Positions 1,071 to 49,193 of a stretch of DNA of 64,000 bases are shown piece after piece; the first letter of the stretch is position 1; each line of letters begins with the position of its first letter. The notes under the pieces were generated by a model. That model had not been told where the DNA came from and did no database searches. It was given only the letters and a program-made list of their open reading frames with translations. The translations under genes and the position numbers were made by a program. Source of the stretch: Lachnoclostridium phytofermentans (GTDB taxonomy: Bacteria > Bacillota > Clostridia > Lachnospirales > Lachnospiraceae). Location of the stretch: NCBI RefSeq assembly GCF_000733755.1, contig NZ_JPOF01000001.1, positions 1 to 64,000 of the forward strand. Reading direction: 5' to 3'.

Positions 1071-1082
1071 AACGGTGCCTCC

Positions 1083-1286: not shown

Positions 1287-1301
1287 TGTATTCCTCCAAT
1301 T

Positions 1302-3142: not shown

Positions 3143-3143
3143 A

Positions 3144-4560: not shown

Positions 4561-4842
4561 TTATTTGCTCCTTTCGATTTTCCGAACCCTTCCGATTGCT
4601 TCCGTGCAATTCCGAAAAAGACTTCTGAAAAATACTAAAATGTAGATAGTGGAAGTTACAAACATGTGTAAGTGTAACTCGCTTTATTAAGTATATCACA
4701 AAAATGTACATTTTACCAGAAGTTCAAATTTGCGTTTGTAAATTTTGTGTGTGCATTCAAAAATCAGAACTGTTGAACATGTGTAGATAGTGATATTCAC
4801 AACAATCAATATCACAAGGCCTGATTAGCTATAGGGCATTGG

Positions 4843-4961
4843 GATACAAATATCGAGCCAACCACAGTACAAGCTGTGGAAGGTACGATAGAAGTACCCT
4901 TATTTTCCTATGCTCTTTTTCAGGCAAGATGGTCGGTACTTCTAAAGCACCGGCCATTTTT
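4843..4961 (+). ncRNA. Structured phage leader RNA ending in an intrinsic terminator
   Basis: Three small hairpins stand in a row: GATA/TATC (4843-4854), CCACAG/CTGTGG with a 6-base loop (4862-4879) and GGTAC/GTACC (4882-4898). A terminator follows with stem TGGTCGGT/ACCGGCCA (4930-4956) and a run of five T. The arrangement looks like an attenuated leader or short RNA ahead of the sigma-like gene at 5008. No protein is encoded; a 63-codon frame across it lacks a ribosome site. No known RNA family was recognised. Confidence 0.5.
4930..4961 (+). terminator. Intrinsic terminator before the first prophage gene
   Basis: An 8-bp stem (one G-U pair) with an 11-base loop, followed directly by TTTTT. 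It lies 46 bases before the first phage start codon, so early transcription must start downstream, read through, or be attenuated here. Confidence 0.7.
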
Positions 4962-5007
4962 GTACCCTTTGCCCTTCCGCTGAGAATCAGGCGGAAAGGA
5001 CAAGAGA

Positions 5008-5493
5008 ATGAAGTTGAAGATTCGTTATGAAGAAAAGTATGAAACTGTGGAGGTTAACAGCGAAGAAATGTGGGTCAGCCTGTCTTTGGAAGGAGGAGAA
5101 AATCTCACTCAAGAAGAGAAGGAAACGATGATTCAGGATGCTTTTGAAGAGAAGTTTAATAAGCCTGAATACAACAACTGGCACAAATTTGACCGTCATC
5201 GTGGGAACTTAAAAAAGCAGTTCAGAAAAGATGATGAAGATGCTGATGAAAGTGATGGCTTGGATACTGTTGGGGATTACTCACAGGAAGAAGAACGTAC
5301 TCGCAAATATGAATACGAGGATTTGTGCCAAAGAATCCGTGCTGTATTAAAGCCTAATTTTGCAGAGGTCATAATTGCCATGTGTTTGGATGATATGACA
5401 CCGGAAGAATATGCAGCTACCACAGGAGAAAAGAGAGATACCGTCTATAAACGATTACAGAGAGCCAAGAAAAAATTTAAAGAATTTTTCTAA
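5008..5493 (+). CDS. Sigma-70-like phage transcription factor
   Basis: A 161-residue protein, start ATG 5008 with GGAAAGGAC upstream. The C-terminal 50 residues (about 105-160) form a sigma region-4-type HTH: a helix with VIIAMCLDDMTPEEYAATTG and a recognition helix KRDTVYKRLQRAKKKF. The N-terminal half is acidic and lacks region 2, so it probably binds RNA polymerase or DNA as a partial sigma or activator. It is the first gene of the prophage, behind a terminated leader, which fits an early switch. Its stop is followed at once by the first copy of the phage hairpin repeat (5496-5536). Confidence 0.65.
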   Translation: MKLKIRYEEKYETVEVNSEEMWVSLSLEGGENLTQEEKETMIQDAFEEKFNKPEYNNWHKFDRHRGNLKKQFRKDDEDADESDGLDTVGDYSQEEERTRKYEYEDLCQRIRAVLKPNFAEVIIAMCLDDMTPEEYAATTGEKRDTVYKRLQRAKKKFKEFF

Positions 5494-5495
5494 AA

Positions 5496-5536
5496 CTGTC
5501 CAATCTGCCCCCCTCCCAAGGCTAACAGGTAGAGGG
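5496..5536 (+). repeat. Phage leader hairpin repeat, copy 1
   Basis: Conserved CTGTCCAATCTG at 5496-5507, then a hairpin with left arm 5509-5517, loop AAGGCTAACA and right arm GGTAGAGGG (5528-5536). The same block occurs at 33215-33255 and 37768-37808. Loop and 5' tag are conserved while the arms vary. Copy 1 lies between the sigma-like gene and the antirepressor. Confidence 0.7.
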
Positions 5537-5569
5537 TCAACCTCAAATAAATTACAGGAGGTAATTCTT

Positions 5570-6370
5570 ATGAGCGAATTACAGATTTTTAAGAATGCGG
5601 AATTTGGCTCTGTTCGCACAATTGCTATTGATAGTGAGCCATATTTTGTGGGTAAAGACATAGCTGTTATTTTAGGGTACAGCAATCCAAGAGATGCTCT
5701 GGCAAAGCACGTTGATGATGAAGATAAGGGGGTAGCAAAATGCGACACCCTTGGTGGAATCCAAGATTTAACGGTTATCAATGAGTCCGGTCTTTACAGC
5801 CTTATTCTTTCGAGTAAGCTACCGACTGCTAAAAAGTTCAAACGCTGGGTTACAAGTGAAGTTCTCCCTGCTATTCGTAGACATGGTATTTACGCAGTAG
5901 ATGAGGTGTTGAATAACCCAGACATGCTGATTGCAGCACTTACAGAGTTGAAGGAAGAGCGTGCAAGAATGAAGGCTTTAATGGAAACTGTAGCTGTTCA
6001 GAATCAGCAGATTGTGGAGATGAAACCAAAAGCCAGTTATTACGATGTGGTGCTTAATTGTAAAGACCTTGTAGCAATCTCTGTTATTGCAAAGGATTAT
6101 GGTTGGAGCGCTAATCGTATGAATCAGTATCTTCACGAAAAAGGAGTACAGTACAAACAGGGCAATAAAATATGGCTATTGTATCAGAAGTATGCCGAGA
6201 TGGGTTATACCAATACCAAGACACACAGTTATCCCGGTAGTGATGGCTCGATGCACACAGCCTTTCATACTTATTGGACACAAGCAGGCCGCCTTTTCAT
6301 TTATGGGCTGTTAAAGGCAGATGGTATTTTACCTACAATGGAACAGGAGGAAAGTTATGGCGATAGATAA
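5570..6370 (+). CDS. Phage antirepressor (BRO-N plus KilAC)
   Basis: Start ATG 5570 with CAGGAGG seven bases upstream; 266 residues. Residues 1-105 are a BRO-N domain (FKNAEFGSVRTIAID, then YFVGKDIAVILGYSNPRDAL and the KKFKRWVTSEVLPAIRRHG signature). A coiled linker follows, then a KilA C-terminal domain (about 155-255). Proteins of this type counter the prophage repressor during induction. It follows hairpin repeat copy 1, which may control its translation. The stop overlaps the next start, so the two genes are coupled. Confidence 0.9.
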   Translation: MSELQIFKNAEFGSVRTIAIDSEPYFVGKDIAVILGYSNPRDALAKHVDDEDKGVAKCDTLGGIQDLTVINESGLYSLILSSKLPTAKKFKRWVTSEVLPAIRRHGIYAVDEVLNNPDMLIAALTELKEERARMKALMETVAVQNQQIVEMKPKASYYDVVLNCKDLVAISVIAKDYGWSANRMNQYLHEKGVQYKQGNKIWLLYQKYAEMGYTNTKTHSYPGSDGSMHTAFHTYWTQAGRLFIYGLLKADGILPTMEQEESYGDR

Positions 6371-6785
6371 ATTTAACGCAGAGGGTTATTATGACCCGGT
6401 TGTATTTGAGGCTTTAACAAAAATTGAAAAGGAAGAGCGTGCGGCAAGAAAGGCCGCCGCTTTCCGACCTATGGTGTATGTGTGCAGTCCATATGCCGGG
6501 GATATTGATAAAAACACAGCTAACGCAAGGATGTATTCCCGTTTTGCTGTAGCCAAAAATACGATTCCACTTGCTCCACATCTATTACTGCCACAGTACA
6601 TTTCGGAAGAACACGAGAGAGGTCTTGCTATGTTTATGAATAAGGTTTTTCTCGGTAAGTGTGATGAATTATGGGTATTTGGCAGCAGTATTTCGTCCGG
6701 GATGTCAGAAGAGATTGAATTGGCAGGTAAGATGAGAAAGAAAATCAGATATTTTACTGAGGAATTGCAGGAGGTGGAACAGTAA
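6357..6785 (+). CDS. DUF4406-like phage protein (nucleoside-metabolism fold)
   Basis: A 142-residue protein, ATG 6357 behind AGGAGG, overlapping the antirepressor end. The stretch MVYVCSPYAGDIDKN near residue 38, with later LAPHLLLPQY and DELWVFGSSISSGM, matches the nucleoside deoxyribosyltransferase-like DUF4406 pattern found in many phages. The family probably acts on nucleotides or their derivatives; the exact reaction is not known. The gene ends exactly where the primase-helicase begins (ATG 6785), indicating one early operon. Confidence 0.65.
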   Translation: MAIDKFNAEGYYDPVVFEALTKIEKEERAARKAAAFRPMVYVCSPYAGDIDKNTANARMYSRFAVAKNTIPLAPHLLLPQYISEEHERGLAMFMNKVFLGKCDELWVFGSSISSGMSEEIELAGKMRKKIRYFTEELQEVEQ

Positions 6786-9031
6786 TGAGATTAACGATTT
6801 ATACGGCAGATTGCGTTGGCAGTCTGTCTAACTGTGTTTATCCAAATAAACATATTATTACGGATGAGGCTGCTATGAACGTAGCAATGAAGTATGACCA
6901 TGTGACGGCTGCATATAAGGATAATTACCGTAATAATTCCAATTTTATTACAGCTGATAATGTTCCTCTTGATTGTGACAATGACCATAGTGATAATCCA
7001 GCCGAATGGATTACACCTTTTGAAGTGGCTATGGCATTTCCTGATGTTGCTTTTGTAGCTGTGTATAGTAGAAACCATATGAAAGTAAAAGACGGTAGGT
7101 CTGCCCGTCCAAGATTTCATGCGTATTTTATTATCCCGGAAGTAACAGACTCCAAGGAATATACACTTCTTAAGAAGAGGATTGCAGCCTCTTTTCCCTA
7201 CTTCGATAGCAATGCACTTGATAGTGCAAGACTGCTTTTCGGTGTAGCAGAACCACAGGTGGAATTTTACGAAGGCAGCAGTAACATCATTGATTTCCTT
7301 GATGATCAGGAATTTGATGCTTGGGATAATCAGCAATCGGAAGTTCCACAGGGCAAGAGAAATAATACAATGTCCCATTATGCCGGGAAAATCATCAAAC
7401 GCTATGGAGATACCGATGAGACATATCAGCTTTATTTACAAAAGGCTGAAAAATGTAATCCTCCACTTGAAGATGCTGAACTTAAGACCATATGGAATAG
7501 TGCCTTAAAGTTTGGTGCGAAGGTATCATCTCAAGAAGGATATATTTCACCAGAACAGTATAATGCAGATTTTGAATTAAAGCCGGATGATTTCTCCGAT
7601 GTAGGACAGGCTGTGGTGCTTGCAAGAGAATATAACGAAAGTCTCAGATATTCCCCTTCCACAGGTTACCTTGTTTATAATGGTAGCTTTTGGGAAGAGT
7701 CGGATCCTTTGTCACAGGCTGTTGCACAGGAACTTACTACCAGACAGCTTGCCGAGGCAGAGGTTGAAATCAAGAAAAGATTAAAAGAAATGGAACAAAA
7801 CGGTGCCTTTAAAATCTTGGCTCAGATGGGTGCGAATAAAGCGGTGTCTGCTTTTAATGAAGTGCAGGCTCGTTCCTTTGAACTGTATGAGGATGCCATC
7901 AATTATAAAAAGTATGCCATCAAACGCAGGGATTCCAAGTACATCTCCTCTGCTCTAAAAGAAGTTAGACCAATGGTGGGTATTACCCAGAACCTACTTG
8001 ATGAAGATGAGTTCTTGCTCAATACTCCCGGTGGTACTTGTGACCTTCGTAAAGGTGCAAGTGATATCCGTGAACATAATGCTTTTGATTACATTACCAA
8101 GCAGACAGCTGTGGATGCAGATACTGTGGGTGCAGACTTATGGGAGGATGCTCTTAATACATTCTTCTACAAAGACAAAGCACTCATTGATTATGTGCAG
8201 AAAATCGTAGGTTTGTCTGCTATCGGCAAGGTATATGTAGAGGCTTTGATTATTGCATATGGAGAAGGACGTAACGGTAAATCTACTTTTTGGAATGTGG
8301 TATCTCGTGTACTTGGTACTTATAGCGGTAATATTTCTGCTGATGTGCTGACCGTTGGGTGTAAAAGAAATGTGAAACCGGAACTTGCCGAGGCCAAGGG
8401 CAAAAGACTGCTCATTGCAGCTGAATTGGAAGAAGGTATGAGACTTAACACATCTAATGTAAAGCAGCTTTGTTCTACGGATGAAATCTATGCTGAGAAG
8501 AAATACAAAGCACCATTTTCCTATATCCCAAGCCACACGCTTGTGCTTTACACCAATCACTTACCGAAGGTCGGTGCCATTGATAAAGGTACATGGCGAA
8601 GACTGATAGTGATTCCGTTTCAGGCAAAGATTGAAGGCAGTAACGATGTGAAGAATTTTGCTGATTATCTTTTTGAGAATGCTGGTGGTGCGATACTTTC
8701 TTGGGTCATTGCGGGTGCGAAAAAGGTAATCGAGGATAATTACCATATTGAACCTCCACAGAAGGTACAGGATGCCATTCGTAAGTATAAAGAAAATAAT
8801 GACTGGATGTCACATTTCCTTATGGAGTGTTGTGAGGTGGATGAAAGCTATACTGCAAAATCGGGAGAAGTCTATAACTCATATCGTTCGTATTGCACGC
8901 AGGTGGGTGACTTTATTCGCAGTACGGCTGATTTTTACACGGCCTTGGAAAGCAACGGATTCGACCGTAAAAAAACAAGGGATTGCAACCTTATAATCGG
9001 TCTTCGATTAAAGTCAGATTTCCTTGAATAA
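6785..9031 (+). CDS. Phage primase-helicase (AEP plus D5/P4-type helicase)
   Basis: A 748-residue protein. The N-terminal third carries primase-polymerase features: DCDND near residue 64 and a PRFHAYFIIP strand. The C-terminal half is a D5/P4-family superfamily-3 helicase with Walker A GEGRNGKST, a downstream IAAELEEG acidic segment and the sensor LYTNHLPKV. It should prime and unwind phage DNA. The AT-rich inverted repeat directly after its stop (9050-9147) is a plausible origin. It overlaps the previous gene by one base; codon use matches the other phage genes. Confidence 0.88.
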   Translation: MRLTIYTADCVGSLSNCVYPNKHIITDEAAMNVAMKYDHVTAAYKDNYRNNSNFITADNVPLDCDNDHSDNPAEWITPFEVAMAFPDVAFVAVYSRNHMKVKDGRSARPRFHAYFIIPEVTDSKEYTLLKKRIAASFPYFDSNALDSARLLFGVAEPQVEFYEGSSNIIDFLDDQEFDAWDNQQSEVPQGKRNNTMSHYAGKIIKRYGDTDETYQLYLQKAEKCNPPLEDAELKTIWNSALKFGAKVSSQEGYISPEQYNADFELKPDDFSDVGQAVVLAREYNESLRYSPSTGYLVYNGSFWEESDPLSQAVAQELTTRQLAEAEVEIKKRLKEMEQNGAFKILAQMGANKAVSAFNEVQARSFELYEDAINYKKYAIKRRDSKYISSALKEVRPMVGITQNLLDEDEFLLNTPGGTCDLRKGASDIREHNAFDYITKQTAVDADTVGADLWEDALNTFFYKDKALIDYVQKIVGLSAIGKVYVEALIIAYGEGRNGKSTFWNVVSRVLGTYSGNISADVLTVGCKRNVKPELAEAKGKRLLIAAELEEGMRLNTSNVKQLCSTDEIYAEKKYKAPFSYIPSHTLVLYTNHLPKVGAIDKGTWRRLIVIPFQAKIEGSNDVKNFADYLFENAGGAILSWVIAGAKKVIEDNYHIEPPQKVQDAIRKYKENNDWMSHFLMECCEVDESYTAKSGEVYNSYRSYCTQVGDFIRSTADFYTALESNGFDRKKTRDCNLIIGLRLKSDFLE

Positions 9032-37767: not shown

Positions 37768-37808
37768 CTGTCCAATTTTACCTCCTGCCAAGGCTATTAG
37801 GCAGGAGG
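37768..37808 (+). repeat. Phage leader hairpin repeat, copy 3, covering a ribosome site
   Basis: CTGTCCAAT tag at 37768-37776. Perfect stem CCTCCTGCC/GGCAGGAGG (37781-37789 and 37800-37808), loop AAGGCTATTA. The right arm contains the AGGAGG of the next gene (ATG 37817), so the folded form should block translation. Confidence 0.75.
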
Positions 37809-37816
37809 TGTTTTTT

Positions 37817-38050
37817 ATGGCAGATGAAAACAGAGTAGTAACGATGATTACAGAACCGGGACTTTCCCCTGCACCAATAAAATCCCGTATGACCGAGGAG
37901 CAGTTAAAGGGTGATTATAAATATTGCATGGCACAGAAATTGGTAAAAGCAATGCTGGAAAAGGGTTTAATTTCTGTGGATGAATTCAACAAAATAACGG
38001 AGAAAAATCGCAAAACTTTCTCCCCGTATTTAGCTGAGATAATGTCATAA
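37817..38050 (+). CDS. Small SHOCT-like phage protein
   Basis: A 77-residue protein, ATG 37817, seven bases after AGGAGGT inside hairpin copy 3. The C-terminal part (VKAMLEKGLISVDEFNKITE) resembles a SHOCT-type short helical domain; the N-terminal 30 residues are probably disordered. Such proteins often precede serine recombinase operons in these phages, but the role is unknown. Its translation is likely gated by the hairpin. Confidence 0.7.
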   Translation: MADENRVVTMITEPGLSPAPIKSRMTEEQLKGDYKYCMAQKLVKAMLEKGLISVDEFNKITEKNRKTFSPYLAEIMS

Positions 38051-38055
38051 ATGAC

Positions 38056-38097
38056 TTGATATTTCGGCACTATTACGGGAATATGTCCATACCGAAA
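38056..38097 (+). promoter_or_regulatory. Promoter of the recombinase operon
   Basis: TTGATA (38056-38061), 18 bases, AATATG (38080-38085), ACCGAAA at 38091. Identical architecture to the 16376 promoter: 35 bases from TTG to ACCGAAA in both, and ATGAC directly before. Confidence 0.7.
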
Positions 38098-38110
38098 GCG
38101 AGGTGAGATG

Positions 38111-39673
38111 ATGAAAAGGATAACAAAAATTGAGGAAAATAAAGCCTTACTCATACGAAAGAAAATTCGTGTTGCAGCCTATTGCCGAGTATCTACGGCA
38201 AGTGATGAACAGCTTATCAGTTTGGAGGCTCAAAAAGCACATTACGAGGATTACATCAAATCCAATGATGAGTGGGAGTATGCTGGTCTTTATTATGATG
38301 AAGGGGTCACAGGTACAAAAAAGGATTGCCGTGATGGGTTGCTTTCCCTTGTGGAGGATTGTGAAAAAGGTTTGATAGATCTGGTCATTACAAAATCCAT
38401 CAGCCGTTTCAGTAGAAATACAACAGACTGCTTGGAATTGGTACGAAAGTTACTCGACCTAAAGGTTACCGTTATTTTTGAAAAAGAAAATCTAAACACA
38501 GGCACTATGGAGAGTGAACTAATGCTTTCAATACTTAGTAGCCTTGCAGAAAGCGAATCCGTATCCATTTCTGAAAACAGCAAATGGTCGGTTCAGAAAC
38601 GCTTTCAGAATGGAACCTTTATCATCGGCTACCCACCATATGGATATATGAACCTAAATGGTGAAATGGTAATTGTGCCTGAACAGGCAGAAGTTGTAAA
38701 ACAAATTTTTGCAGATACACTTGCCGGAAAAAGTACCCATGTGATTGCAAAGGAACTAAATGATAGAGGTATTAAAAGCAAAAAAGGTGGAAAGTGGTAT
38801 CCCGGAACTATCAATGCAATCATTCGCAATGAGAAGTTTACGGGAGATGTTATTTTCCAAAAGACCTATACCGACAGCCGATTTACTCGTCATACCAATT
38901 ACGGTGAGTGTGATAGGTATTTATGCGAAGGTCATCACGAGGCTATTGTTAGCCACGAGATATTTGATAAGGCCAACGAAGTATTGAATCAAAGAGGCAA
39001 AGAAAAAGGCAACGGTGAAAACACACAGCGTTATCAGAACCGTTATGGTTTTTCGGGTAGAATCAAATGTGGTGAGTGTGGTAGTGTATTTAAACGCAGG
39101 ATTCATTACAAACCAAGCGGAGATTATATAGCTTGGTGCTGTACCCACCATATTGAGGATAAAACAGCCTGCTCTATGAAATACATCACAGACGATGGAA
39201 TAAAGGCTGCGTTTCTTACAATGATGAATAAGCTGATATTTGCTCATCAGATAGTCCTTAAACCGCTACTTCACAGCCTGCAAGGTTTGGATGATAAAGA
39301 CCGATTATTGCAACTACAAGACTATGAGGACAGGTTGGAAAAGAATATGGAGCAAAGGCAGGTACTTACAAGTCTGATGGCAAGTGGTCTGTTAGAGCCA
39401 GCACTTTTCAACCGTGAAAACAATATGCTGATTGCACAGGAACAGCAGCTCTTGGAAGAAAAGAACAGTATTATGAATTCCGTAAGCGGTGACCGAACCA
39501 AGGTGGATGCCTTGAAGAAACTTATAAAAGCTGTATCGGGCAGAAGTATGTTAACAGAATATGAGGATGAATTCTTTCTTTCCCATGTAGAAACAGTCAC
39601 GGTACTTTCAAGGGATGAGATTGTATTTGTTTTAAAGTGTGGTTTGAAATTAAAGGAAAGGTTGGTGGCATAA
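38111..39673 (+). CDS. Large serine recombinase A
   Basis: A 520-residue protein; ATG 38111 has better spacing to GAGGTG than ATG 38108. Catalytic resolvase domain at the N-terminus ([14 protein letters not shown] with the nucleophilic serine, then KSISRFSRNT). A recombinase domain (about 165-270) and a zinc ribbon follow (KCGECGSVFKRR, later CCTHH and C), then a coiled coil and a C-terminal strand. It cuts and rejoins att sites by double-strand serine chemistry. First of three overlapping recombinase genes. Confidence 0.93.
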   Translation: MKRITKIEENKALLIRKKIRVAAYCRVSTASDEQLISLEAQKAHYEDYIKSNDEWEYAGLYYDEGVTGTKKDCRDGLLSLVEDCEKGLIDLVITKSISRFSRNTTDCLELVRKLLDLKVTVIFEKENLNTGTMESELMLSILSSLAESESVSISENSKWSVQKRFQNGTFIIGYPPYGYMNLNGEMVIVPEQAEVVKQIFADTLAGKSTHVIAKELNDRGIKSKKGGKWYPGTINAIIRNEKFTGDVIFQKTYTDSRFTRHTNYGECDRYLCEGHHEAIVSHEIFDKANEVLNQRGKEKGNGENTQRYQNRYGFSGRIKCGECGSVFKRRIHYKPSGDYIAWCCTHHIEDKTACSMKYITDDGIKAAFLTMMNKLIFAHQIVLKPLLHSLQGLDDKDRLLQLQDYEDRLEKNMEQRQVLTSLMASGLLEPALFNRENNMLIAQEQQLLEEKNSIMNSVSGDRTKVDALKKLIKAVSGRSMLTEYEDEFFLSHVETVTVLSRDEIVFVLKCGLKLKERLVA

Positions 39674-40098
39674 TGGCACACATTCCCTACGGATATAAAA
39701 TAGTGGATGGTAAAGCAGAAATTGACGAAGAGCAAGCTGGTGTTGTAAGAGCATTATTTGAAGGATATATTTCCGGTTTGGCTCTAAAGGTAGCAGCTGA
39801 ACAAGCAGGACTGAATATTTACCACGGCAGTGCCGGGCGAATGCTGAGGAATACGCACTACCTTGGAGATGAATATTACCCTACCATTATTGACAAAGCA
39901 TTGTTTGATAAAGCAGAAGAAATCAGAGTGGCAAAGGCAGGTGCCTTGGGTAGAATCAGAGAATTGGATAAGCCATCAAAAGTTGTGGCGAACAAAAGTT
40001 TTACTATAAAGCTGATTGAGATGAAATTCACAGACCCTTTTGCACAGGCGGAATATGCATACAGTTTGATAGAAAGCGAGGTGGCAACAGTTGAGTAA
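39673..40098 (+). CDS. Recombinase-domain protein without catalytic domain
   Basis: A 141-residue protein, ATG 39673 sharing a TAATG junction with recombinase [41 protein letters not shown] and [11 protein letters not shown] correspond to the middle DNA-binding (Recombinase, PF07508) domain of large serine recombinases. The resolvase domain and the zinc ribbon are absent. It cannot cut DNA, so it may act as a directionality or accessory factor for its neighbours. Overlaps recombinase B by eight bases. Confidence 0.85.
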
Positions 40099-41656
40099 GA
40101 ATATAACGGTTATCCCGGCACGAAGACGAGTCGGAAACACTGTGAACAAGGAAGTAAAGCCGAAACTTAAGGTCGCAGCGTACTGCCGTGTGAGTACCGA
40201 CAGTGATGAACAGGCTACAAGTTATGAGGCGCAGGTGGAGCATTACACCAACTTCATACAGAAAAATGATGAGTGGGAATTCGCAGGCATATTTGCTGAC
40301 GATGGTATTTCTGGAACTAACACAAAAAAGCGAGAAGAATTTAATCGTATGATTGAGGAATGTATGGCAGGTCATATTGATATGATTATTACAAAGTCCA
40401 TCAGCCGATTCGCAAGAAATACACTTGATTGTCTGAAGTATATCCGTCAGCTAAAGGAAAAGAATATTCCCGTATTTTTTGAAAAAGAGAACATAAACAC
40501 AATGGATTCCAAGGGCGAGGTTTTATTAACCATTATGGCCAGTCTTGCACAGCAGGAGTCGGAATCTTTAAGCAAAAATGTAAAGTTGGGATTGCAGTTT
40601 AGATACCAGAATGGCGAGGTGCAGGTAAACCACAATCGTTTCATGGGTTATACAAAGGACGATAAAGGACACCTTGTGATAGAGCCAGAGGAGGCTGAAA
40701 TTGTAAAACGCATTTATTTGGAATATCTGCAAGGGGCAAGTCTAAAGCAAATCGGAGAAGGTTTGCAGGAAGACGGAATCCTAACTGCCGCGGGTAAAGA
40801 AAGGTGGCGTCCAGAAACCATTAAGAAAATTCTAAGTAATGAAAAGTACATCGGAGATGCCCTTCTTCAGAAAACCTATACGGTGGATGTGCTTACTAAA
40901 AAGCGAGTGAAGAATAACGGCATTGTTCCACAGTATTATGTAGAAAACAACCATGACCCTATCATTCCCCGTGACCTTTATATGCAAGTGCAAGAGGAAA
41001 TGCTAAGACGAGCCAATCTCCACAGTGGAGAAAACAGAAAGAAAAGGGTTTACAGTAGTAAATTTGCACTTTCCAGTATTGTGTACTGTCCAAAGTGTGG
41101 TGACATCTATCGCCGGATTGCTTGGAACAACCGAGGGAAACACTCCATTGTATGGCGTTGCGTAAGCCGAGTGGAACACGGACCAAGCTGTTGTGATTCA
41201 CCGACCGTTCAGGAAACTGACCTGCAGAATGCCGTGGTAAAAGCCATTAACTTAGCTCTTGGTGGCAAGAATGAGATGCTTGTCACCTTGGAAGATAATA
41301 TTGCTACTGTTTTTGCTTTGGGGGATGACGGTTCGATAGAAAGTATTAATGCCAAGCTGGAAGAATTGCAGAAGGAATTGTTAAAGAGAGCTAATGCCAA
41401 AAAGGATTATAATGACCTTGCCGATGAGATTGACCGTTTGCGTGAACTGAAACAGGATGCAATGGTAGAGAATGCAGTGCGTGAGGGATTGAAACAAAGG
41501 ATGGCTGAAATGAAACAGTTCCTTGCAGAACAGACAGACGAGATTGAAGAATATGATGAGGCATTAGTCAGAAGAATGATTGAAAAGATAACAGTGCATG
41601 AAGATAGATTCACGGTTGAGTTCAAATCCGGCACAAGCATAAATGTAGAAAGATAA
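40091..41656 (+). CDS. Large serine recombinase B
   Basis: A 521-residue protein, TTG 40091 behind GCGAGGTGG. Catalytic start [14 protein letters not shown] with the active serine, ISRFARNT, then recombinase domain and zinc ribbon ([16 protein letters not shown], later W.C). Long C-terminal coiled coil and final beta-strand as in phage integrases. About equally long as recombinase A but clearly divergent, so the two are not a recent duplication. It is the last gene before the presumed attR. Confidence 0.93.
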
Positions 41657-41766: not shown

Positions 41767-41822
41767 AAATAATCTTATTTGTGTTAGAACTAATAAGTAT
41801 TGCGAATAGGAGCAGTAAATAC

Positions 41823-42035
41823 ATGATTAAAAACAATATAGAAGTAGATGTAAAAGTAAAGTGTATAGAGAACGGAACTACGCAGGCACAACTTGCGGAA
41901 ACTATTGGAACAACAGGACAATATGTAAATCGTATCATCAAGAAACAAGATGGTATTGTTAATAAGACCTTCGTGCAGATGCTTGAGGCTCTTGGATACG
42001 ATATCGAATTAACCTATGTAAAAAGAGAGATTTGA
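41823..42035 (+). CDS. Small XRE-type HTH regulator
   Basis: A 70-residue protein, ATG 41823 after AGGAG. The Cro/C1 HTH spans residues 20-60 (TTQAQLAETIGTTGQYVNRI, then VNKTFVQMLEALGYDIELTY). It is the first gene of the island and a likely autoregulator. A 15-base palindrome GGACACAATGTGTCC (42056-42070) directly after it could be its operator. Confidence 0.8.
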   Translation: MIKNNIEVDVKVKCIENGTTQAQLAETIGTTGQYVNRIIKKQDGIVNKTFVQMLEALGYDIELTYVKREI

Positions 42036-42128: not shown

Positions 42129-43856
42129 ATGGCAAAGGAAAATGCTATTCTCGATAAAGAAGAAACTTTAAGCGAAGAATTGTCGGAGTCATTTGACTTT
42201 GATGAGTTGGAGGAAAAACTTCAAAGACAGTTGGAAGAGGAACTCGCAGATATGCAGTTTCTTGCAGAAGAAAAAGAAAAGATTGGAAATCCAGACAATC
42301 TGGGTAGTGTCATCATGGATGTTGTGTGGGAGCAATTTTTAAACCAAGTTGCTGTTACTGCGGGCGAAGATTTTATCAAAGAAAATAGAGGACTTCATCT
42401 TGATTTGAGAAAAGAGGCTCATATTCAGACAACAAAGAATTTTGCAGAAGGTAAAATTGCAACACATAATACTGAAATCGATTATCAGGAAAGGTATGAC
42501 GATTGGCAGAGTAACTTCCAAAAGGATCCTAACATTGAACATAAAACAAGCAATTACAGATACAATGACGAACAACAGGTATGGGAAAAACATGATACCA
42601 GAAGTGATTCTTGGAAGAAAGTATTGAACAAGGATGCTCGTGCCGATTTTGATAAAGGCAGACCAACAGGTAATAATACAGCCAATACAAATATGGACCA
42701 TACTGTTTCTGCAGGTGAGATTATTCGCGACCCGGATGCAAATGCTCACATGACTCGCGAAGAGCAGGTCGCTTTTGCTAATAGTGAGAAAAATCTCAAT
42801 TTGATGGATTCGGCTGCTAATCAATCTAAGGGCGATTCTACTATGTCTGAATTTTTGGATAGTGAAAGAGATGGAAAGAAGGCAGCAGAACGCTTTAATA
42901 TTGATGAAGAAGAACTTCGTAAAAAGGATGCAGAGGCTCGTGAGGAATACGAAAAACAGAAAAAAGAGGCTGAGCAAAAATCCATTGAAGCAGGAAAAAA
43001 ATCCCGAAAAGAAGAGGCATTCCGTATTGGTGGGAAAGCACTTCGTGCGGTACTTATGCAGTTATTGGCCGAACTTGTCAGAGAGATTATTGCCAAGCTG
43101 GTTAAGTGGTTTAAATCATCCCAAAAAGCCTTGGATACTCTGTTGGATAGTCTGAAAGAAGCAATTCATTCTTTTATCGGTAAGATGAAACAGCATTTTA
43201 TTAATGCAGGGAACACGCTGTTTACTACTGTTGCAACAGCAATTTTAGGTCCTATTGTTGGAACATTTAAAAAAGTGTGGATTATGCTGAAACAGGGATG
43301 GAGTTCCCTCAAAAATGCCGTTGCTTATATCAAGGACCCTGCAAATAAAGGAAAGCCTATCGGAAGATTGCTGATGGAAGTTGGGAAAATTGTAATTGCG
43401 GGTATGACTGGTGTTGGCGCTATGATACTTGGAGAAGTAATTGAAAAGGGGCTAATGACTATTCCTATCTTTGCAGTTGAGATTCCGTTACTTGGTAGCT
43501 TGGCGAACATATTGGGTATTTTCCTTGGTGCTGTTGTTGCAGGTATTATTGGTGCGATAGCAATTAACATCATCGAGAAGCAGATTGAAAAGGACATGAA
43601 GCGAGAAAATGTCGATGCTCAAATAAAGAAAGGCAATGAAATCTTAAGAACGCAGCATCAGTTACAGGTTGTTAATGAAGAACAACTTGACCACACAAAA
43701 TCGGTAGCGGCACAGAATATATACGAGCGTCATGTTGCTGCGGCCAATATGATGGTGGATTCTGTTGAAACTATTAGAGCAAATTGTGAAACTGATGAAA
43801 GCATTCAAGATGCTTTCGATGATATTGATAAGCTATTTGATGAATTGGAGGATTGA
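42129..43856 (+). CDS. Membrane protein with embedded HNH-like nuclease motif
   Basis: A 575-residue protein, ATG 42129 with AAAGG upstream. N-terminal acidic coiled coil (1-50). Residues 186-240 read TNMDHTVSAGEI, then NLNLMDSAANQSKGD: the DH...N...N..K layout of HNH (beta-beta-alpha-metal) nucleases. A charged coiled coil spans about 250-300, and hydrophobic segments lie at about 364-382, 420-438 and 453-482. The C-terminal 50 residues (IYERHVAAANMMVDSVE, then DDIDKLFDELED) recur in the next gene. I do not know a described family with this order. First structural gene of a four-gene operon ending in an AAA ATPase; a membrane-held nuclease effector is plausible. Confidence 0.65.
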   Translation: MAKENAILDKEETLSEELSESFDFDELEEKLQRQLEEELADMQFLAEEKEKIGNPDNLGSVIMDVVWEQFLNQVAVTAGEDFIKENRGLHLDLRKEAHIQTTKNFAEGKIATHNTEIDYQERYDDWQSNFQKDPNIEHKTSNYRYNDEQQVWEKHDTRSDSWKKVLNKDARADFDKGRPTGNNTANTNMDHTVSAGEIIRDPDANAHMTREEQVAFANSEKNLNLMDSAANQSKGDSTMSEFLDSERDGKKAAERFNIDEEELRKKDAEAREEYEKQKKEAEQKSIEAGKKSRKEEAFRIGGKALRAVLMQLLAELVREIIAKLVKWFKSSQKALDTLLDSLKEAIHSFIGKMKQHFINAGNTLFTTVATAILGPIVGTFKKVWIMLKQGWSSLKNAVAYIKDPANKGKPIGRLLMEVGKIVIAGMTGVGAMILGEVIEKGLMTIPIFAVEIPLLGSLANILGIFLGAVVAGIIGAIAINIIEKQIEKDMKRENVDAQIKKGNEILRTQHQLQVVNEEQLDHTKSVAAQNIYERHVAAANMMVDSVETIRANCETDESIQDAFDDIDKLFDELED

Positions 43857-43860
43857 TGAT

Positions 43861-44232
43861 ATGAAAAAGGTATTCTACATCATAGGTGCTGGTTTAGTCA
43901 TAGGTGCTACGGTAGCTACCGCTGTGTATTTGTTGAAGAATAAGAAAAAGAAAGAATGTGGGGAAGATTACGATTACAAGGACTCTGCAGAAAAGCGAGT
44001 AGCAACAGATGATGAACTTTCAACGGAGATTACCCCCATCCACGATGACCCTGGGTATGAAGACGTAAAAAGTTCTGCGATTGGAAGTATGTATTCCAGA
44101 CATGAAGGTGCAGCTACCATCATGAGTGATTCAGTAGAGGCGATTCTTGAAAACGTGAAGATTTCCAAAGGTACAAATGACGAAATCGACGAGGTTTCTG
44201 CTGAATTAGATAAAATGCTAAGTGAGGACTAA
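43861..44232 (+). CDS. Small membrane protein sharing the C-terminal tail of its neighbour
   Basis: A 123-residue protein, ATG 43861 nine bases after GGAGG. One N-terminal transmembrane helix (about 4-26, FYIIGAGLVIGATVATAVYL), a Lys-rich stop-transfer, an acidic linker, then a tail MYSRHEGAATIMSDSVEAIL...IDEVSAELDKMLSED. The tail aligns with the end of the 575-residue protein (Y.RH..AA..M.DSVE.I). The shared tail may be a docking peptide for the AAA ATPase. Function unknown. Confidence 0.65.
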   Translation: MKKVFYIIGAGLVIGATVATAVYLLKNKKKKECGEDYDYKDSAEKRVATDDELSTEITPIHDDPGYEDVKSSAIGSMYSRHEGAATIMSDSVEAILENVKISKGTNDEIDEVSAELDKMLSED

Positions 44233-44234
44233 AG

Positions 44235-45563
44235 ATGGGTGAATTAGTTATACAGTATCATGATTTTGAAAATGCAAAAAAGGAAATAAAGAAGTTTTCT
44301 GAACAGTCCACAACAGATTTAGATTTGAAAAGAGTAGATGACTCTAAAGGTGTTGGCGAATTTCTGGGCGATTGGATTTTCGGACGTGGAATTGGGTTGA
44401 ACCATAAGGTTACAGGTGAGGAATTAAATGAATTAACTTCGCAAATCCAATCTCATTTGCACAGTATTAATAATACTCAAATTAAGCTGATTAAGGAATT
44501 TGGACAGGTATACAGTGCTTTGGAAGCTTTGGATAAGGATTACATCCAAGCTATTCTGGTTTCTATTAAGGCGACTGAAGAAACAAGTGAAAGCATTCAA
44601 AAAACACAAGAACAGATTAAAAAAATTGTTGAAAATCAGCGAAAAACCCTTGAGGAACTCAAAAAGTTTAAGCAGAAATTGGATGGCTATGCCCATCTGG
44701 GAGATATTGATAAAATTTGGGGTGACTGCCAAAAATGGCATCAAGAGATGACCTCTCTTTCAAAGGGGATTGCTACAGCTACTGAGCATAGTAAAGAAAG
44801 CATCAAAAAGGTAGACGCTTTAAAAATTGCATTTACGGCAGCAGAAAAGAAAACAAGTGATTTGTCGGAACAACTCTCTCAGATGATAAAAAGGTTGAAG
44901 TCAATCAGTGCATTTACCAGTGCTTTGGAGACAATCACTCATTTGCAAGATGTTGATGCAATGTGGGAATCCCTCTCTGCAGCACACGACTCTATGAGAC
45001 GTATCAACGGAGACGTTGAGAAAATTCAGAAAGTATCATCTAAACATCAAGAAGAAATCAATAAGTTGCTTGCGTTCACAGAAAAAATATCTTTCCTTAA
45101 GCACTTGACGTATGTGGACAATATCTGGACTTGGATGGAAGAGCAGAAACCTCACTTGAAAGAGGTCGACCGCATTAACGAAGAGCAGAATGGTAGATTA
45201 GATGCATTATCTCAAAAAAGCGAAGAAATTAGTGGACGTGTATCCAAAACCACGGATAGCCTTCGTATTCTGAATGAGTATATGAATAGCCTCGACAATA
45301 TTGTACATTTGGAAGATGTGGATAGTACATGGCAAGTTGTTGAGAAACATACGGAACAGTTAAGTGAGATAGAAAAACAGAATGGTAGCATTGTTTCTAC
45401 TGTTCAAAAAAACAAGGAAGATGTAGAAGCAAAAATTGCAGCCGCTATTCAAGAAACAAACAGTTCAATTGAATCTTTAACAAAGAAGCTAAAGTATGCG
45501 TATTGGATTGCCGGAGTGGCTGCGGGATTGGCGATAATCGAGTTGATGTTGCTTCTATTATGA
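44235..45563 (+). CDS. Tail-anchored coiled-coil protein with four HL..D..W repeats
   Basis: A 442-residue protein, ATG 44235 two bases after the previous stop. Mostly alpha-helical coiled coil. Four copies of a motif HL-x-D/Y-V/I-D-x-x-W occur at about residues 154, 236, 290 and 358 (AHLGDIDKIW, THLQDVDAMW, KHLTYVDNIW, VHLEDVDSTW), each breaking the coil. One transmembrane helix at the very end (about 421-442). The topology suggests a rod held on the membrane facing the cytoplasm, possibly a sensor or scaffold for the ATPase. No known family recognised. Confidence 0.65.
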   Translation: MGELVIQYHDFENAKKEIKKFSEQSTTDLDLKRVDDSKGVGEFLGDWIFGRGIGLNHKVTGEELNELTSQIQSHLHSINNTQIKLIKEFGQVYSALEALDKDYIQAILVSIKATEETSESIQKTQEQIKKIVENQRKTLEELKKFKQKLDGYAHLGDIDKIWGDCQKWHQEMTSLSKGIATATEHSKESIKKVDALKIAFTAAEKKTSDLSEQLSQMIKRLKSISAFTSALETITHLQDVDAMWESLSAAHDSMRRINGDVEKIQKVSSKHQEEINKLLAFTEKISFLKHLTYVDNIWTWMEEQKPHLKEVDRINEEQNGRLDALSQKSEEISGRVSKTTDSLRILNEYMNSLDNIVHLEDVDSTWQVVEKHTEQLSEIEKQNGSIVSTVQKNKEDVEAKIAAAIQETNSSIESLTKKLKYAYWIAGVAAGLAIIELMLLLL

Positions 45564-45573
45564 AGGTAATACA

Positions 45574-46686
45574 ATGGATAAATATGGTCAAGCACTAATA
45601 AATAATGCATCTAAATTAGATGCGGTCACAGATGCCTGTGGAGAAATAACGAAGTTAGCAACTGTGATTGTAGAGGAATATAGCAAGCCTGCTACAATTT
45701 CGATTCTGAAAAAAATCTCAGAATCAGTTGATAATCCTAGATACAAGATTGAAGCAAAACGTGCAGCTCAGGTTGTTAATTCTAGCTTGATTGAGTTTTA
45801 TGGTTATTCTACTATACAGAGCATTTGCAAACCTGAGACAGACGCGGATGAAGATACAAGAACGCTCCAAGATTTGTTGGATGAATTGAATGCCCTTATT
45901 GGCTTGGAAAAGGTCAAAAGTAAGGTTCAAGATTTAATTGTATATCAAAAAGTTCAGAAGATGCGTCGGGAGAATAATCTTCACTCTACAAAGAATACAT
46001 TGCATCTTGCGTTTACCGGAAATCCCGGAACGGGAAAAACAACGGTTGCCAGAATTGTTGGAAGAATCTATAAGAGAATAGGGTTGCTGTCAAAGGGGCA
46101 TTTTGTTGAGGTTTCACGAACTGACCTTATTGCTGGATATCAAGGACAAACTGCACTTAAAGTAAAAAAAGTAATTGAGCAGGCAAAAGGTGGTGTGTTG
46201 TTCATTGATGAGGCATATAGCATCACGGAGAATGACCATTCCGACTCATATGGCAGAGAGTGTCTAACAGAATTAACGAAAGCCTTGGAAGATTATAGGG
46301 ATGATCTGGTCGTGATTGTCGCTGGATACACCGAACCTATGAATAAGTTTTTTGAGTCAAATCCCGGATTAAAATCTCGCTTCAATACATTTATAGAATT
46401 TGATGATTATTCTCCTAATGAATTGGATAGAATATTGATTTCTATGTGTAAAAATAACGATTATGTTTTGGATGATAAAGCTAAAGAAAAAATCCATTTA
46501 TATTTTGAACAGCAAACGTCATCGAAGGATGAAAACTTTGCAAACGGTAGATTGGTGCGAAATCTTTATGATGATTTGGTTATGAATCATGCAAGACGAG
46601 TAATTGATATCACTAATCCAGACAAGAGTGTACTGTCAACTATTACATCCACAGATTTTACTATTCTATATCAAATAAGGAAATGA
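45574..46686 (+). CDS. CbxX/SpoVK-type AAA ATPase
   Basis: A 370-residue protein, ATG 45574. Residues 1-95 are a helical N-terminal domain; 100-360 are the AAA module. Walker A is GNPGTGKTT (149-157), Walker B VLFIDEAYS (208-216), sensor 1 VVIVAGY and arginine finger region SNPGLKSRF; all are present. The family includes CbbX and SpoVK and the EccA ATPase of type VII secretion, which remodel or unfold partners through a hexameric pore. Here it is the motor of the four-gene membrane operon, and the shared C-terminal tails of the first two proteins are candidate substrates. Confidence 0.9.
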   Translation: MDKYGQALINNASKLDAVTDACGEITKLATVIVEEYSKPATISILKKISESVDNPRYKIEAKRAAQVVNSSLIEFYGYSTIQSICKPETDADEDTRTLQDLLDELNALIGLEKVKSKVQDLIVYQKVQKMRRENNLHSTKNTLHLAFTGNPGTGKTTVARIVGRIYKRIGLLSKGHFVEVSRTDLIAGYQGQTALKVKKVIEQAKGGVLFIDEAYSITENDHSDSYGRECLTELTKALEDYRDDLVVIVAGYTEPMNKFFESNPGLKSRFNTFIEFDDYSPNELDRILISMCKNNDYVLDDKAKEKIHLYFEQQTSSKDENFANGRLVRNLYDDLVMNHARRVIDITNPDKSVLSTITSTDFTILYQIRK

Positions 46687-46776
46687 ATAATATACCAGAG
46701 AGTAGAAGTCTGGAATATTAGATAGTCAATGGGTAGAAATGTGAAAGTATGTTTTAAGAATCTAAAAAGGTTTGTT

Positions 46777-46805
46777 TTGATACGATTATAACGACGATTT
46801 ATTAT
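46777..46805 (+). promoter_or_regulatory. Promoter of the SIR2-like gene
   Basis: TTGATA (46777-46782), 17-base spacer, TATTAT (46800-46805), 31 bases before the start codon. It shows that the SIR2 gene can be expressed apart from the AAA operon. Confidence 0.65.
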
Positions 46806-46836
46806 GTGATTAAACAAGCAAGGAGATGTATGTAAT

Positions 46837-48180
46837 ATGAAATATTCGGAATATGCTGGTCTAAGGTGGGGAAAACTCAATGATAATGACAAAAAATTTC
46901 TTTTGAAAAATGCCATTTGTAGAGGTGGAATGACAGGTAGTCCTTTAACACAAGGTGAGGGAATGGTAGAGTTTGCGGAAACGCTGGCGGTTTTAGGTGC
47001 TGTTTATGACGGAAATATAGTAATTGATGATGAGGCAGAATTATATAATCCGTGTATTGGTAATGATGGAAGACCATTAACTGAGGAAGATTTAGAGAAA
47101 ATGTTAGATGAGTATAAAGCTACATCTGAAAATGAGAATCTTATGAATGAGTATGAATATTATATGAAAAACAGACCTCATGTTGTTATTCTTGGAGCTG
47201 GAGCGAGTTGTGCAACAATACCCAATGGAGATAAATATGGGAAGAAAATATCTGCTATGAGTGGTTTTATTGAAAAACTCGGTCTAACTGATATTCTTTC
47301 AAAAATTAGTATACACACTTCTTCGGATAACCTTGAAGATATATATATGGAAATCGACGAACGCAGTCAAGAAGAGGAAGAATGTAGAAAAGTAAAAGAA
47401 GAATTAGAAAAAATAATTTGGGAGTACATGAGTAGTTACGAATTACCAGATAATCCTACGATATATGATTTTCTTGTATTAAGTCTTACAGAGAAAGATT
47501 TGATTGTTACATTTAATTGGGATCCATTGTTGGTTCAAGCTATATGTAGGATGCAACGATATACAAGTAATATACCACAGGTTGCTTTTCTACACGGGAA
47601 TGTCGCAGTTGGGTTTTGTGAAGATGATAATATAATGGGAAATGTAGGTGAGTTATGCAGATGTGGAAAATCATTAAAACCAATGAAATTGCTATTCCCC
47701 GTGAAGAAGAAAAATTATAGCAGTGATATTGCTATTCGTAAATCGTGGAAAACTCTTAACAATGCGTTAGAAAAAGCCTATATGATTACAATCTTTGGTT
47801 ATAGTGCACCTAAAAGTGATATTGAAGCTGTGTCAATGATGAAAAAAGCATGGGGAACGGTTTCGGATAGGAATCTGGAAGAGATAGAAATAATTGATAT
47901 TAGAAAAGAAGATGACGTTATTGAGTCGTGGAATCAATTTATACATACGCATCATTATTCGTATCACACAAGTTTCTTTGATTCAACATTGGCACGCTGT
48001 CCGAGGAGAACGTGTGAGGCCACATTTGATAGACTTATGAATTGTATATGGTTGGATGGAAGTAAAGGATTTAAAGAAAGTATGTCGTTTTTGGATATCG
48101 AGAAGTATATTTGCAATTTGATAGAGGAAGAAAAAAATGCAAAAGGGAAAAATATAGTACTTTCAAATCCTTATTATTAA
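46837..48180 (+). CDS. SIR2-like domain protein (putative NADase effector)
   Basis: A 447-residue protein, ATG 46837 behind AAGGAG. Residues 1-110 are an unrecognised domain. The Rossmann part starts VVILGAGASCATIPNG (116-131), the SIR2 NAD loop; TFNWDP (225-230) and FLHGN with the catalytic-type His 253 follow, and then GYSAPKSDIE. This is the SIR2_2 pattern of defence NADases, which kill or arrest infected cells by NAD depletion. A CRCG pair (about 274-277) could bind metal. It directly follows the AAA operon but has its own promoter. Confidence 0.8.
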   Translation: MKYSEYAGLRWGKLNDNDKKFLLKNAICRGGMTGSPLTQGEGMVEFAETLAVLGAVYDGNIVIDDEAELYNPCIGNDGRPLTEEDLEKMLDEYKATSENENLMNEYEYYMKNRPHVVILGAGASCATIPNGDKYGKKISAMSGFIEKLGLTDILSKISIHTSSDNLEDIYMEIDERSQEEEECRKVKEELEKIIWEYMSSYELPDNPTIYDFLVLSLTEKDLIVTFNWDPLLVQAICRMQRYTSNIPQVAFLHGNVAVGFCEDDNIMGNVGELCRCGKSLKPMKLLFPVKKKNYSSDIAIRKSWKTLNNALEKAYMITIFGYSAPKSDIEAVSMMKKAWGTVSDRNLEEIEIIDIRKEDDVIESWNQFIHTHHYSYHTSFFDSTLARCPRRTCEATFDRLMNCIWLDGSKGFKESMSFLDIEKYICNLIEEEKNAKGKNIVLSNPYY

Positions 48181-48378
48181 AATTGTAATATGGTGGATAT
48201 TTTTCCACGGACACGCAGAATAGCAGTGGATATGTTCCCACAAACGCAAAGGGGAATAAAATGGGAAAAATGTGATAAAGACATACTTCCTATCATATCG
48301 AGCCATGTTGAAACTGCCGTACTTCTTGTTAGAAAACCTTGATTCTATGCGGGTCTGCAATTTGTCGTAGTAAAAAAG

Positions 48379-48410
48379 ATGTATCTATTTTTGATACATC
48401 TTTTTTTATA
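48379..48410 (+). terminator. Intrinsic terminator after the SIR2 gene
   Basis: AAAGATGTATC/GATACATCTTT stem with a loop of seven bases, mostly T, and a following T run; works in both directions by its A/T tails. Confidence 0.85.
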
Positions 48411-48487
48411 TTAAATTTTATTAAATAGAAGCTTTATAACATTTATTACATATTTACATACTAAAAATTATGCAGCTAAGAAAAAAG

Positions 48488-48516
48488 TTGACTATTGCAA
48501 TATCCTGTAATAAACT
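48488..48516 (+). promoter_or_regulatory. Promoter of the secreted protein gene
   Basis: TTGACT, 17-base spacer, TAAACT, 51 bases upstream of the ATG at 48568. Confidence 0.6.
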
Positions 48517-48567
48517 AGAAAAATATGTACGAATTAAGAATAAATCCCATAGGAGATAAAAAGACGT

Positions 48568-49017
48568 ATGAAAAAAATTGCAACCCTTATCATTGCTCTC
48601 GTGATAACTTTGTCAACAAGCTTATCAACAACTTATGCCACATCTCCTTGTCAGGATTTTGAAGATTTTCCATATACTTATTCTGGGGTAGGAACTTTTG
48701 CGTATCTGGTAAAGTTGTTGGGGGGAACTTATTCCTGTGATGACTGGAAAGCCATCTGGGAGATTGATGGAGATACATGGGAGGCTACCCTTCATACCAA
48801 GGAGAAGGATGGTACTGCTTATTCATACGATTTTCTCGAGGTTAGCCGTAATGGAGTTCCATTGCAATTAACAGAGGACAATTCTTCTAGAGGCAATGGA
48901 ACTGTCTCTGGTAGAAGATATACGTTGGAGGATTTGGAACTTATGTTAGATATACAAATAGAAATTGACCAAATTAATATGGTGGGATACATAAAAAAGA
49001 ATAATGAAATGTATTAA
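48568..49017 (+). CDS. Small secreted protein of unknown function
   Basis: A 149-residue protein, ATG 48568 behind AGGAG. Signal peptide MKKIATLIIALVITLSTSLS with a likely cut after TTYA (about residue 24). The mature part is acidic, with a beta-rich stretch (WKAIWEIDGDTWEATLHTKE, then YSYDFLEVSRNGVPL). One cysteine pair (Cys at about 28 and 57) could form a disulfide. I do not recognise the family. Flanked by terminators, it is a single-gene unit. Confidence 0.7.
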   Translation: MKKIATLIIALVITLSTSLSTTYATSPCQDFEDFPYTYSGVGTFAYLVKLLGGTYSCDDWKAIWEIDGDTWEATLHTKEKDGTAYSYDFLEVSRNGVPLQLTEDNSSRGNGTVSGRRYTLEDLELMLDIQIEIDQINMVGYIKKNNEMY

Positions 49018-49145
49018 AAGTAGAAATGCAGATTGGAATGGCTATCCCTGCCTATGGGTTAGTAATGGTAAAAAAACGTCTAGTTAGCAAAACAGGAACA
49101 GCTTTCGAAAGAAGTTACTGCTATCCGTGTGAAGCGATGTTAATA

Positions 49146-49193
49146 AAAAGAGAAACAGCATTGTGCAATGTAATTCAATGCTGTTTCTCTTTT
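49146..49193. terminator. Bidirectional terminator
   Basis: AAAAGAGAAACAGCATTG (49146-49163) pairs exactly with CAATGCTGTTTCTCTTTT (49176-49193), a 18-bp stem with A and T tails. It separates the plus-strand secreted protein gene from the minus-strand kinase gene. Confidence 0.93.

Follow-up and report, generated by a model that had tools for sequence, protein, structure and literature searches.

Two large serine recombinases and a catalysis-free middle protein form a recombination module in a Lachnoclostridium phytofermentans prophage

Three overlapping genes at the locus

The window analysed here is a stretch of 64,000 nucleotides of Lachnoclostridium phytofermentans (contig NZ_JPOF01000001.1, positions 1 to 64,000 of the forward strand), which contains part of a prophage. 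Within this prophage lies an operon of three genes related to the large serine recombinases (LSRs), named here int1, small and int2:

38108-39673, + strand: int1, LSR of 521 aa with Pfam domains PF00239, PF07508 and PF13408
39673-40098, + strand: small, middle protein of 141 aa with an RD domain and a conserved C-terminal tail, without catalytic domain or zinc ribbon
40091-41656, + strand: int2, LSR of 521 aa with a mechanically called TTG start and Pfam domains PF00239, PF07508 and PF13408

The original prediction, made from the DNA letters alone, had described an operon of a full recombinase, a 141-residue protein and a second full recombinase, and open reading frame (ORF) calls and Pfam matches confirmed it. 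Adjoining genes overlap: int1 and small share 1 base, and the called start of int2 is 8 bases ahead of the end of small. The predicted length of small stood, while the predicted left edge at 38056 proved to be upstream of the first ATG, int1 starting at 38108.

Int1 and Int2 are 32% identical. Both have the make-up of LSRs, a Resolvase domain with catalytic residues followed by RD, zinc ribbon and coiled coil. The coiled coil of Int1 is present in the 138 residues from the last zinc cysteine to the final hairpin, and that of Int2 is judged solely from the length of the 154 residues beyond its last zinc cysteine. We compared copies of 495-560 aa from the related loci described below (141 int1 and 137 int2 loci, reduced to 120 and 125 unique intact sequences). 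Ser29 was found in 120 of 120 Int1 and Ser35 in 125 of 125 Int2 proteins; R27, R100 and R103 of Int1, their counterparts R33, R106 and R109 of Int2, and the four zinc cysteines of both were likewise invariant. We take these serines and arginines to be the catalytic residues.

The prophage and its attachment sites

The host assembly contains both states of the locus, the integrated prophage and the empty site. Host contig C3 stops within the prophage; its terminal 7 kb correspond to window positions 1-7017 (99.7% identity, 19 gap openings) and give the left flank. The empty site was revealed by an own-genome match on contig C9 (5165 bp) in a right-flank search that took in 61 related genomes. 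C9 aligns with the C3 flank over 4.3 kb at 99.7% (9 gap openings), and its positions 4286-5165 are 100% identical to window 48304-49183. Alignment of attB, attL and attR showed that exactly the dinucleotide CA is common to them at the junction, as expected of a serine integrase, and placed the following features:

1-48303, no strand: part of the prophage within the window; the left end, attL included, lies on contig C3, with the core at about C3:1755915
48280-48303, + strand: phage arm (P) of attR, 24 bp, from the alignment of att sites
48304-48305, + strand: crossover dinucleotide CA of attR, common to attB (C9), attL (C3) and attR
48306-48342, + strand: host side of attR, the 3′ remnant of rlmD/rumA through its stop, identical to C9

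By coordinates, the prophage spans ~52 kb, starting at the C3 junction and ending at window 48303. Its target is the 3′ end of rlmD/rumA, an rRNA methylase gene (TIGR00479, 491.6 bits vs 183.55). The prophage replaces this 3′ end, and the reading frame has 467 aa in the integrated state and 466 aa at the empty site because the phage supplies a new 3′ end. The existence of C9 suggests that a fraction of the culture lacks the prophage, either by excision or as a mixture.

Serine recombinases gave 6 matches in the host genome, with none inside the prophage besides Int1 and Int2, and tyrosine recombinases gave 10 matches in the host genome and 0 inside the prophage. An alternative in which some other integrase does the job was thereby ruled out. 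Since the att sites are mapped and the searches for serine and tyrosine recombinases brought up only Int1 and Int2 within the prophage, we regard the trio as its working integrase and have little doubt that this module mediates the recombination of the ~52-kb element. A broken int2-like remnant exists elsewhere in the host genome (locus L234, 5454-5864; genome G000, contig C7, about 579 kb).

The crossover is of 2 bp and attP is pseudo-palindromic, both as in LSR systems. In the attP deduced for the window, 14 of 24 positions agree in dyad between the 24-bp arms, compared with 5 of 24 for attB. For the whole set of unique arms, 22 P and 12 P′, the mean was 12.4, against 6.2 after column shuffling (highest of 500: 10.2); this set-wide score is raised by the choice of P arms by their first five bases, 5 of the 24 arm positions, a point that counts against the reading developed below. 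A search for the intact attP pattern yielded 8 viral contigs, and the arm start GAC[AG]T, which lay outside the search pattern, was found in all 7 attP contigs with enough left sequence (one of these contigs, L489, is contig L153 of the arm set); among the phage-arm rows, 30 of 35 begin in this way. The similarity of the arms means that one specificity could read both half-sites, which fits a homomer and a heteromer alike.

A rumA junction with a phage arm was detected in 40 of 165 trio loci, 30 with a P arm and 12 with a P′ arm, and in 34 of the 71 loci that reach at least 6 kb past int2; in the remaining loci the junction may be farther away or the target different. Dyad and junction counts exclude L151, L163 and L206 as duplicates, and the junction count fell from 41 to 40 with L063, one of 13 host-left rows, which carries no phage P′ arm and is maybe a plain host gene end. 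In seven loci (L118, L119, L129, L132, L136, L138 and L140) a rumA end with a phage-supplied tail lies on the strand opposite to int2 and points towards it, which reverses the orientation of attP relative to the trio there.

The middle protein and its ancestry

The small protein had been predicted to consist of only the middle DNA-binding domain of a recombinase. It indeed has the RD and no catalytic domain; its match to the domain family is weak, and the prediction had overlooked a conserved tail. The protein starts at the PYGY of the RD, with the catalytic domain and the connecting helix absent and no match to PF00239. It scored 20.6 bits against PF07508, just below the cut-off of 21.1, because two segments of the RD are missing, ~9 residues close to its tryptophan and ~27 residues following YLGD. 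Profile comparison aligned it to the RD of Int1 and Int2 (probability 99.1%, E 1e-18), and an AlphaFold2 model built with 60 sequences (pLDDT 87.2) matched the RD fold of solved LSRs: residues 1-96 superimpose on 9y66_C with Z 11.3 and rmsd 2.5 (94 aligned), and the model on 4kis_B with Z 10.6 and rmsd 2.2 (92 aligned), while the best Foldseek match was 4kis_A (E 5.7e-4). The remainder after residue 96 comprises a linker and the tail, with a consensus of 14 residues. Small is a full-length member of PHROG 7701 (1-136 of 137, E 2.2e-51), a family labelled 'DNA invertase'; this name implies catalysis, but the members examined here have no catalytic domain. In 200 genomes of the host's family we found 16 full-length matches to PHROG 7701, in 13 genomes. 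The possibility that small is a frameshift remnant of an integrase was rejected, as its ORF is open in 168 of 168 loci and under purifying selection.

Related loci disclosed a second architecture, termed M, in which the middle protein, of ~283-339 aa by its longest ORF, has an RD and a zinc domain but lacks the catalytic one. Bridging forms in loci L394, L402 and L407 combine a small-like RD with a zinc ribbon and the same tail as small. The model of the L394 protein (pLDDT 83.5) aligned with 4kis_B over 205 residues with Z 12.0 and an rmsd of 12.7, indicating that the domains are shifted; in it the tail is helical and lies between the pair of helices that border the coiled-coil insertion of LSRs. 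Read from the three bridging proteins, the tail of small would thus occupy the position of the coiled coil. To judge by these forms, small looks like the product of a middle subunit whose zinc domain was lost while the piece at the coiled-coil position stayed. In a recombinase tree of sampled sequences, with weak deep support, the Int2 proteins of trios and of M systems group together (support 0.86-0.90) and the Int1 groups are less resolved.

Conservation of the trio among relatives

Relatives of small were collected by tblastn at E 1e-3 (394 genome-contig and 434 viral-contig matches, which may include whole recombinases), and synteny was examined for the best 80 of the 394 genome and the best 80 of the 434 viral relatives. 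Leaving out one viral locus (L040) and adding 8 phage records and the window gave 168 small-anchored loci (80 genome and 79 viral) with 131 distinct small proteins; one of them, L151, is the IMG/VR entry for the prophage of the window itself. Fifteen phage records covered at least 80% of small, of which 9 were opened. A flanking partner was defined as a recombinase ORF, whole or partial, at most 300 bp away. By this definition a recombinase gene or fragment lies on both sides of small, on the same strand, in 163 of 168 loci, and the other 5 end at a contig edge; the arrangement is therefore not due to chance. Partners of full size (495-560 aa) are both present in 116 of the 168. Starting instead from relatives of the window's int2, a middle protein was found in 79 of 80 loci, in three of them in the longer bridging form. 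The spacing is tight: int1 and small are a median of 1 bp apart (at most 20 bp in 167 of 168), and small and int2 have a median spacing of -7, overlapping in 102 of 163 when longest-ORF starts are used.

To these counts we can add evidence of selection. Of 556 candidate pairs 140 were tried for dN/dS, and the 124 unsaturated pairs gave medians of 0.088 for int1, 0.127 for small and 0.056 for int2. All three genes are under purifying selection, which is looser for small (maximum 0.476). The hosts include Lachnospiraceae, other Clostridia, Bacillaceae, lactobacilli, streptococci, Erysipelothrix and Gardnerella. Near-invariant co-occurrence, overlapping or abutting genes, a catalytic serine in every intact partner and the lack of any further serine or tyrosine recombinase match in the prophage give good support to the view that the three genes constitute a single recombination module.

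The coiled coil of Int1 and the pair systems

To describe the coiled coil of Int1 we used a score, the count of residues from the fourth zinc cysteine up to the final beta hairpin. With a middle protein, the 168 unique intact Int1 proteins all scored 137-139, compared with 104 of the 112 unique Int1 without a middle at 10-70 (95 at 10-59 and 9 at 61-70) and 8 at 90 or more. Four of these eight are an int2 followed by another recombinase and were dropped from the cluster count; L475 and L480 have two zinc domains, and L300 and L304 a C-terminal extension that by eye is unlike a coiled coil. Three of the nine at 61-70 were inspected (L266, L295 and L455) and are short. Counted once per 70% cluster, a coiled coil is found in 25 of 25 Int1 clusters with a middle and in 1 of 57 without, the latter being a two-zinc-domain protein. 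M-anchored unique Int1 entered the scoring with n=15. Two query sets are designed to pick out short Int1 or M; the two int2-anchored sets are free of this selection. After deduplication, the sample anchored on the window's int2 contained 33 Int1 with a middle, all 33 with a coiled coil, and the second int2-anchored sample, in which 0 of 80 loci had a middle, contained 45 without, of which 40 had no coiled coil, 1 was intermediate and 4 were counted as having one (L475, L476, L480 and L483).

Pair systems, with a short first and a full second recombinase and no middle, were found in phi-SsUD.1 (where the second recombinase, of 462 aa, is likewise shortened), in Javan422 and in 4 of the 6 opened 'Ca. 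Heliusvirales' records, the other 2 being trios. In six pairs (L236, L241, L472, L475, L480 and L483) the first recombinase has two zinc-ribbon domains, or three in L472, and no coiled coil by eye. For the long Int1 of L236 and L241 we considered a fusion with small and discarded it, since the extra part is a second zinc domain and does not match the small profile.

In model integrases the coiled coil matters for directionality. The LI integrase without its coiled coil reacts with all four tested site pairings within one molecule (PMC3783163), and the coiled coil is the part through which the recombination directionality factors (RDFs) of phiC31 and A118 exert their effect, that of phiC31 binding at its base (PMC5814800). 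Together with the pattern in Int1, these findings led us to propose that the third subunit handles Int1's coiled coil.

Proposed mechanism and alternative explanations

The original prediction suggested a heteromeric integrase, and the conservation of the trio makes this likely, as judged from sequence comparison. Its premise of one integrase per phage was too narrow: tandem pairs and triplets are already in print (PMC4701971, PMC4260502, PMC5053989, PMC13089153), and related phages have pairs lacking small. The anatomy of the operon, its conservation, the selection on its genes and its att sites are directly supported; the heteromer, the need for all three subunits and the coiled-coil mechanism are inferred. 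The operon would be the module by which a temperate phage integrates into, and leaves, the 3′ end of rlmD/rumA, where attB, attL and attR of a single assembly demonstrate the CA crossover. Its integrase would have three subunits, two catalytically complete recombinases and a co-translated third that is free of catalysis. Small would be derived from a recombinase by loss first of the catalytic domain and afterwards of the zinc domain, the RD fold and the tail being kept; it would join the Int1/Int2 complex, where the tail could adjust the coiled-coil contacts on which the choice of att sites for synapsis depends. That int1, small and int2 are all needed is fairly probable on the sequence record, and that small acts through the coiled coil is a plausible but tentative proposal. 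To the reading as a whole, a three-subunit integrase in which co-translated small adjusts coiled-coil contacts in synapsis, we give even weight for and against. More doubtful is the extension that small is a built-in synapsis regulator evolved from an integrase and that the pair lineage achieves something similar via a subunit lacking the coiled coil. The original prediction also had small control direction. Such a role is possible, and the tail is placed at the coiled-coil position; a simple on/off switch, thrown only at induction, is disfavoured because small is encoded between the integrases and not separately. Small may promote integration, excision or mere assembly, and a separate directionality factor may exist elsewhere in the phage.

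The most serious alternative, though an unlikely one, is that small is a conventional RDF, with Int1 and Int2 integrating and small turning the reaction to excision. The location of its tail at the coiled-coil position, where the RDFs of phiC31 and A118 act (PMC5814800), speaks for it, and no other RDF was identified in the prophage, where no systematic search for one was made. However, overlapping genes between the integrases imply that small is made whenever the integrases are, unlike the usual RDF, which is expressed when the phage leaves (PMC12412911), and the neighbouring SHOCT and helix-turn-helix (HTH) proteins are alternative candidates. Less probable still is that one recombinase does everything and that the other, like small, is left over or works at different sites. 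The gin element gives a precedent, since GirC and GirX suffice there though three recombinase genes are present (PMC5595907). A pseudo-palindromic attP would suit such a homodimer, and in 26 of 168 loci Int1 and/or Int2 is shortened to below 470 aa away from the locus edge while small is open. Yet both partners have 495-560 aa in most loci, their catalytic serine never varies in intact copies and all three genes have a low dN/dS; in gin, moreover, girC is far from the girAB operon. We consider it improbable that small is a DNA-binding repressor or half-site decoy that governs the operon or att occupancy from outside the active complex: it has the fold of a DNA-binding domain without catalysis, but its missing RD segments and zinc domain argue against this role, which would also leave the conserved tail unexplained.

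Several observations weigh against the three-subunit integrase we favour, in addition to the selection of P arms described above. The shortened partners just mentioned represent partner decay or assembly errors. The placement of the tail depends on three bridging proteins, including a pair with 94% identity, and the profile alignment across the coiled-coil region is weak. L399, the sole exception among the 80 loci anchored on the window's int2, has no middle and a pair-type module upstream, its int2 match beginning only at residue 68, and relatives outside the best-80 sets could include loners lacking the trio context. The middle is not needed by every system at rum, where the pair phage phi-SsUD.1 is integrated (PMC5053989). 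Lastly, the short Int1 proteins of pair systems form a clade of their own (support 0.873), apart from the Int1 of trios, so that the association between coiled coil and middle may reflect one historical difference; for this reason we treat it as a lead.

Comparison with known systems

The closest published arrangement is the serine-integrase triplets of streptococcal integrative and conjugative elements (ICEs), whose external, middle and internal members cluster by position (PMC4701971). As in the trio, three adjacent genes of the serine-recombinase family share one orientation, and the ICE ends carry direct repeats of 2-8 bp; the wording of that report sets the trio apart, since a Resolvase domain is present in all 42 integrases counted there and the middle protein of the trio lacks one. 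The ICE triplets target mutT, traG and hsdM (PMC4701971), in contrast to rumA for this prophage. The streptococcal prophages Phi1207.3, Phi10394.4 and Phim46.1 have tandem LSRs at one end and, like the present one, a dinucleotide crossover (GA in comEC), Phim46.1 being located in rum; in Phi1207.3, unlike the trio, the tandem genes overlap by 1 base with no small gene between them, and the first encodes 412 aa (PMC4260502). SCCmec elements resemble the trio in encoding two paralogous LSRs, CcrA and CcrB, in one operon. These always occur together and act in both directions without an RDF (PMC5595907); no middle protein is described there. Int1 and Int2 were rejected as CcrA/CcrB members, scoring 117.7 and 141 bits with the NCBIfam CcrB model against a cut-off of 900. 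The single LSRs of phages (LI/A118, SPbeta, Bxb1 and phiC31) share with our system the domain plan, the 2-bp crossover, the pseudo-palindromic attP and the RD fold of small. We know of no catalysis-free paralogue in these phages. Such phages combine one enzyme with an unrelated RDF (PMC12412911).

In the open-licence PMC literature, a scope that leaves preprints and most subscription journals aside, we found no published catalysis-free middle member. As far as these searches go, a middle without catalytic domain, its RD-plus-tail make-up and its near-fixed presence in the sampled loci appear to be new, and likewise the att sites at base level and the coiled-coil association. Serine integrases are one-enzyme tools for genome writing, and the way in which their direction is determined is under active study. 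A natural trio that appears to divide the work between two active recombinases and a catalysis-free paralogue, with base-mapped att sites and dozens of relatives with and without the middle, offers a direct test of coiled-coil function, and also of whether a heteromeric integrase behaves differently.

Flanking genes and cargo

The operon is flanked by two short genes:

37808-38050, + strand: SHOCT_2 protein gene 5′ of int1, 80 aa (PF20612, E 1.7e-16)
41781-42035, + strand: HTH protein gene 3′ of int2, 84 aa (HTH_3, E 2.1e-6)

A SHOCT-like ORF precedes int1 in 150 of the 161 loci with at least 250 bp of upstream sequence. It is no more than a guess that the HTH protein acts as a separate factor for directionality or regulation.

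The prophage also carries cargo at both ends. On the attL side there are Lamassu-type defence genes (window 1302-4560; L062 14068-17309), with LmuA at 369 bits and LmuB at 805 bits. LmuB is split into several ORFs in the window contig and open in the overlapping contig, which makes an assembly error in the window likely. Directly inside attL are two adjacent DNA methyltransferases of the C5-cytosine type (L062 9411-11457, on contig C3). Between the HTH gene and attR, at 42129-48180, there is a five-gene cargo that includes a protein resembling the PADLOC candidate PDC-M40B, a weakly JetC-like protein and an AAA ATPase like SpoVK/CbbX; it is maybe an undescribed defence set.

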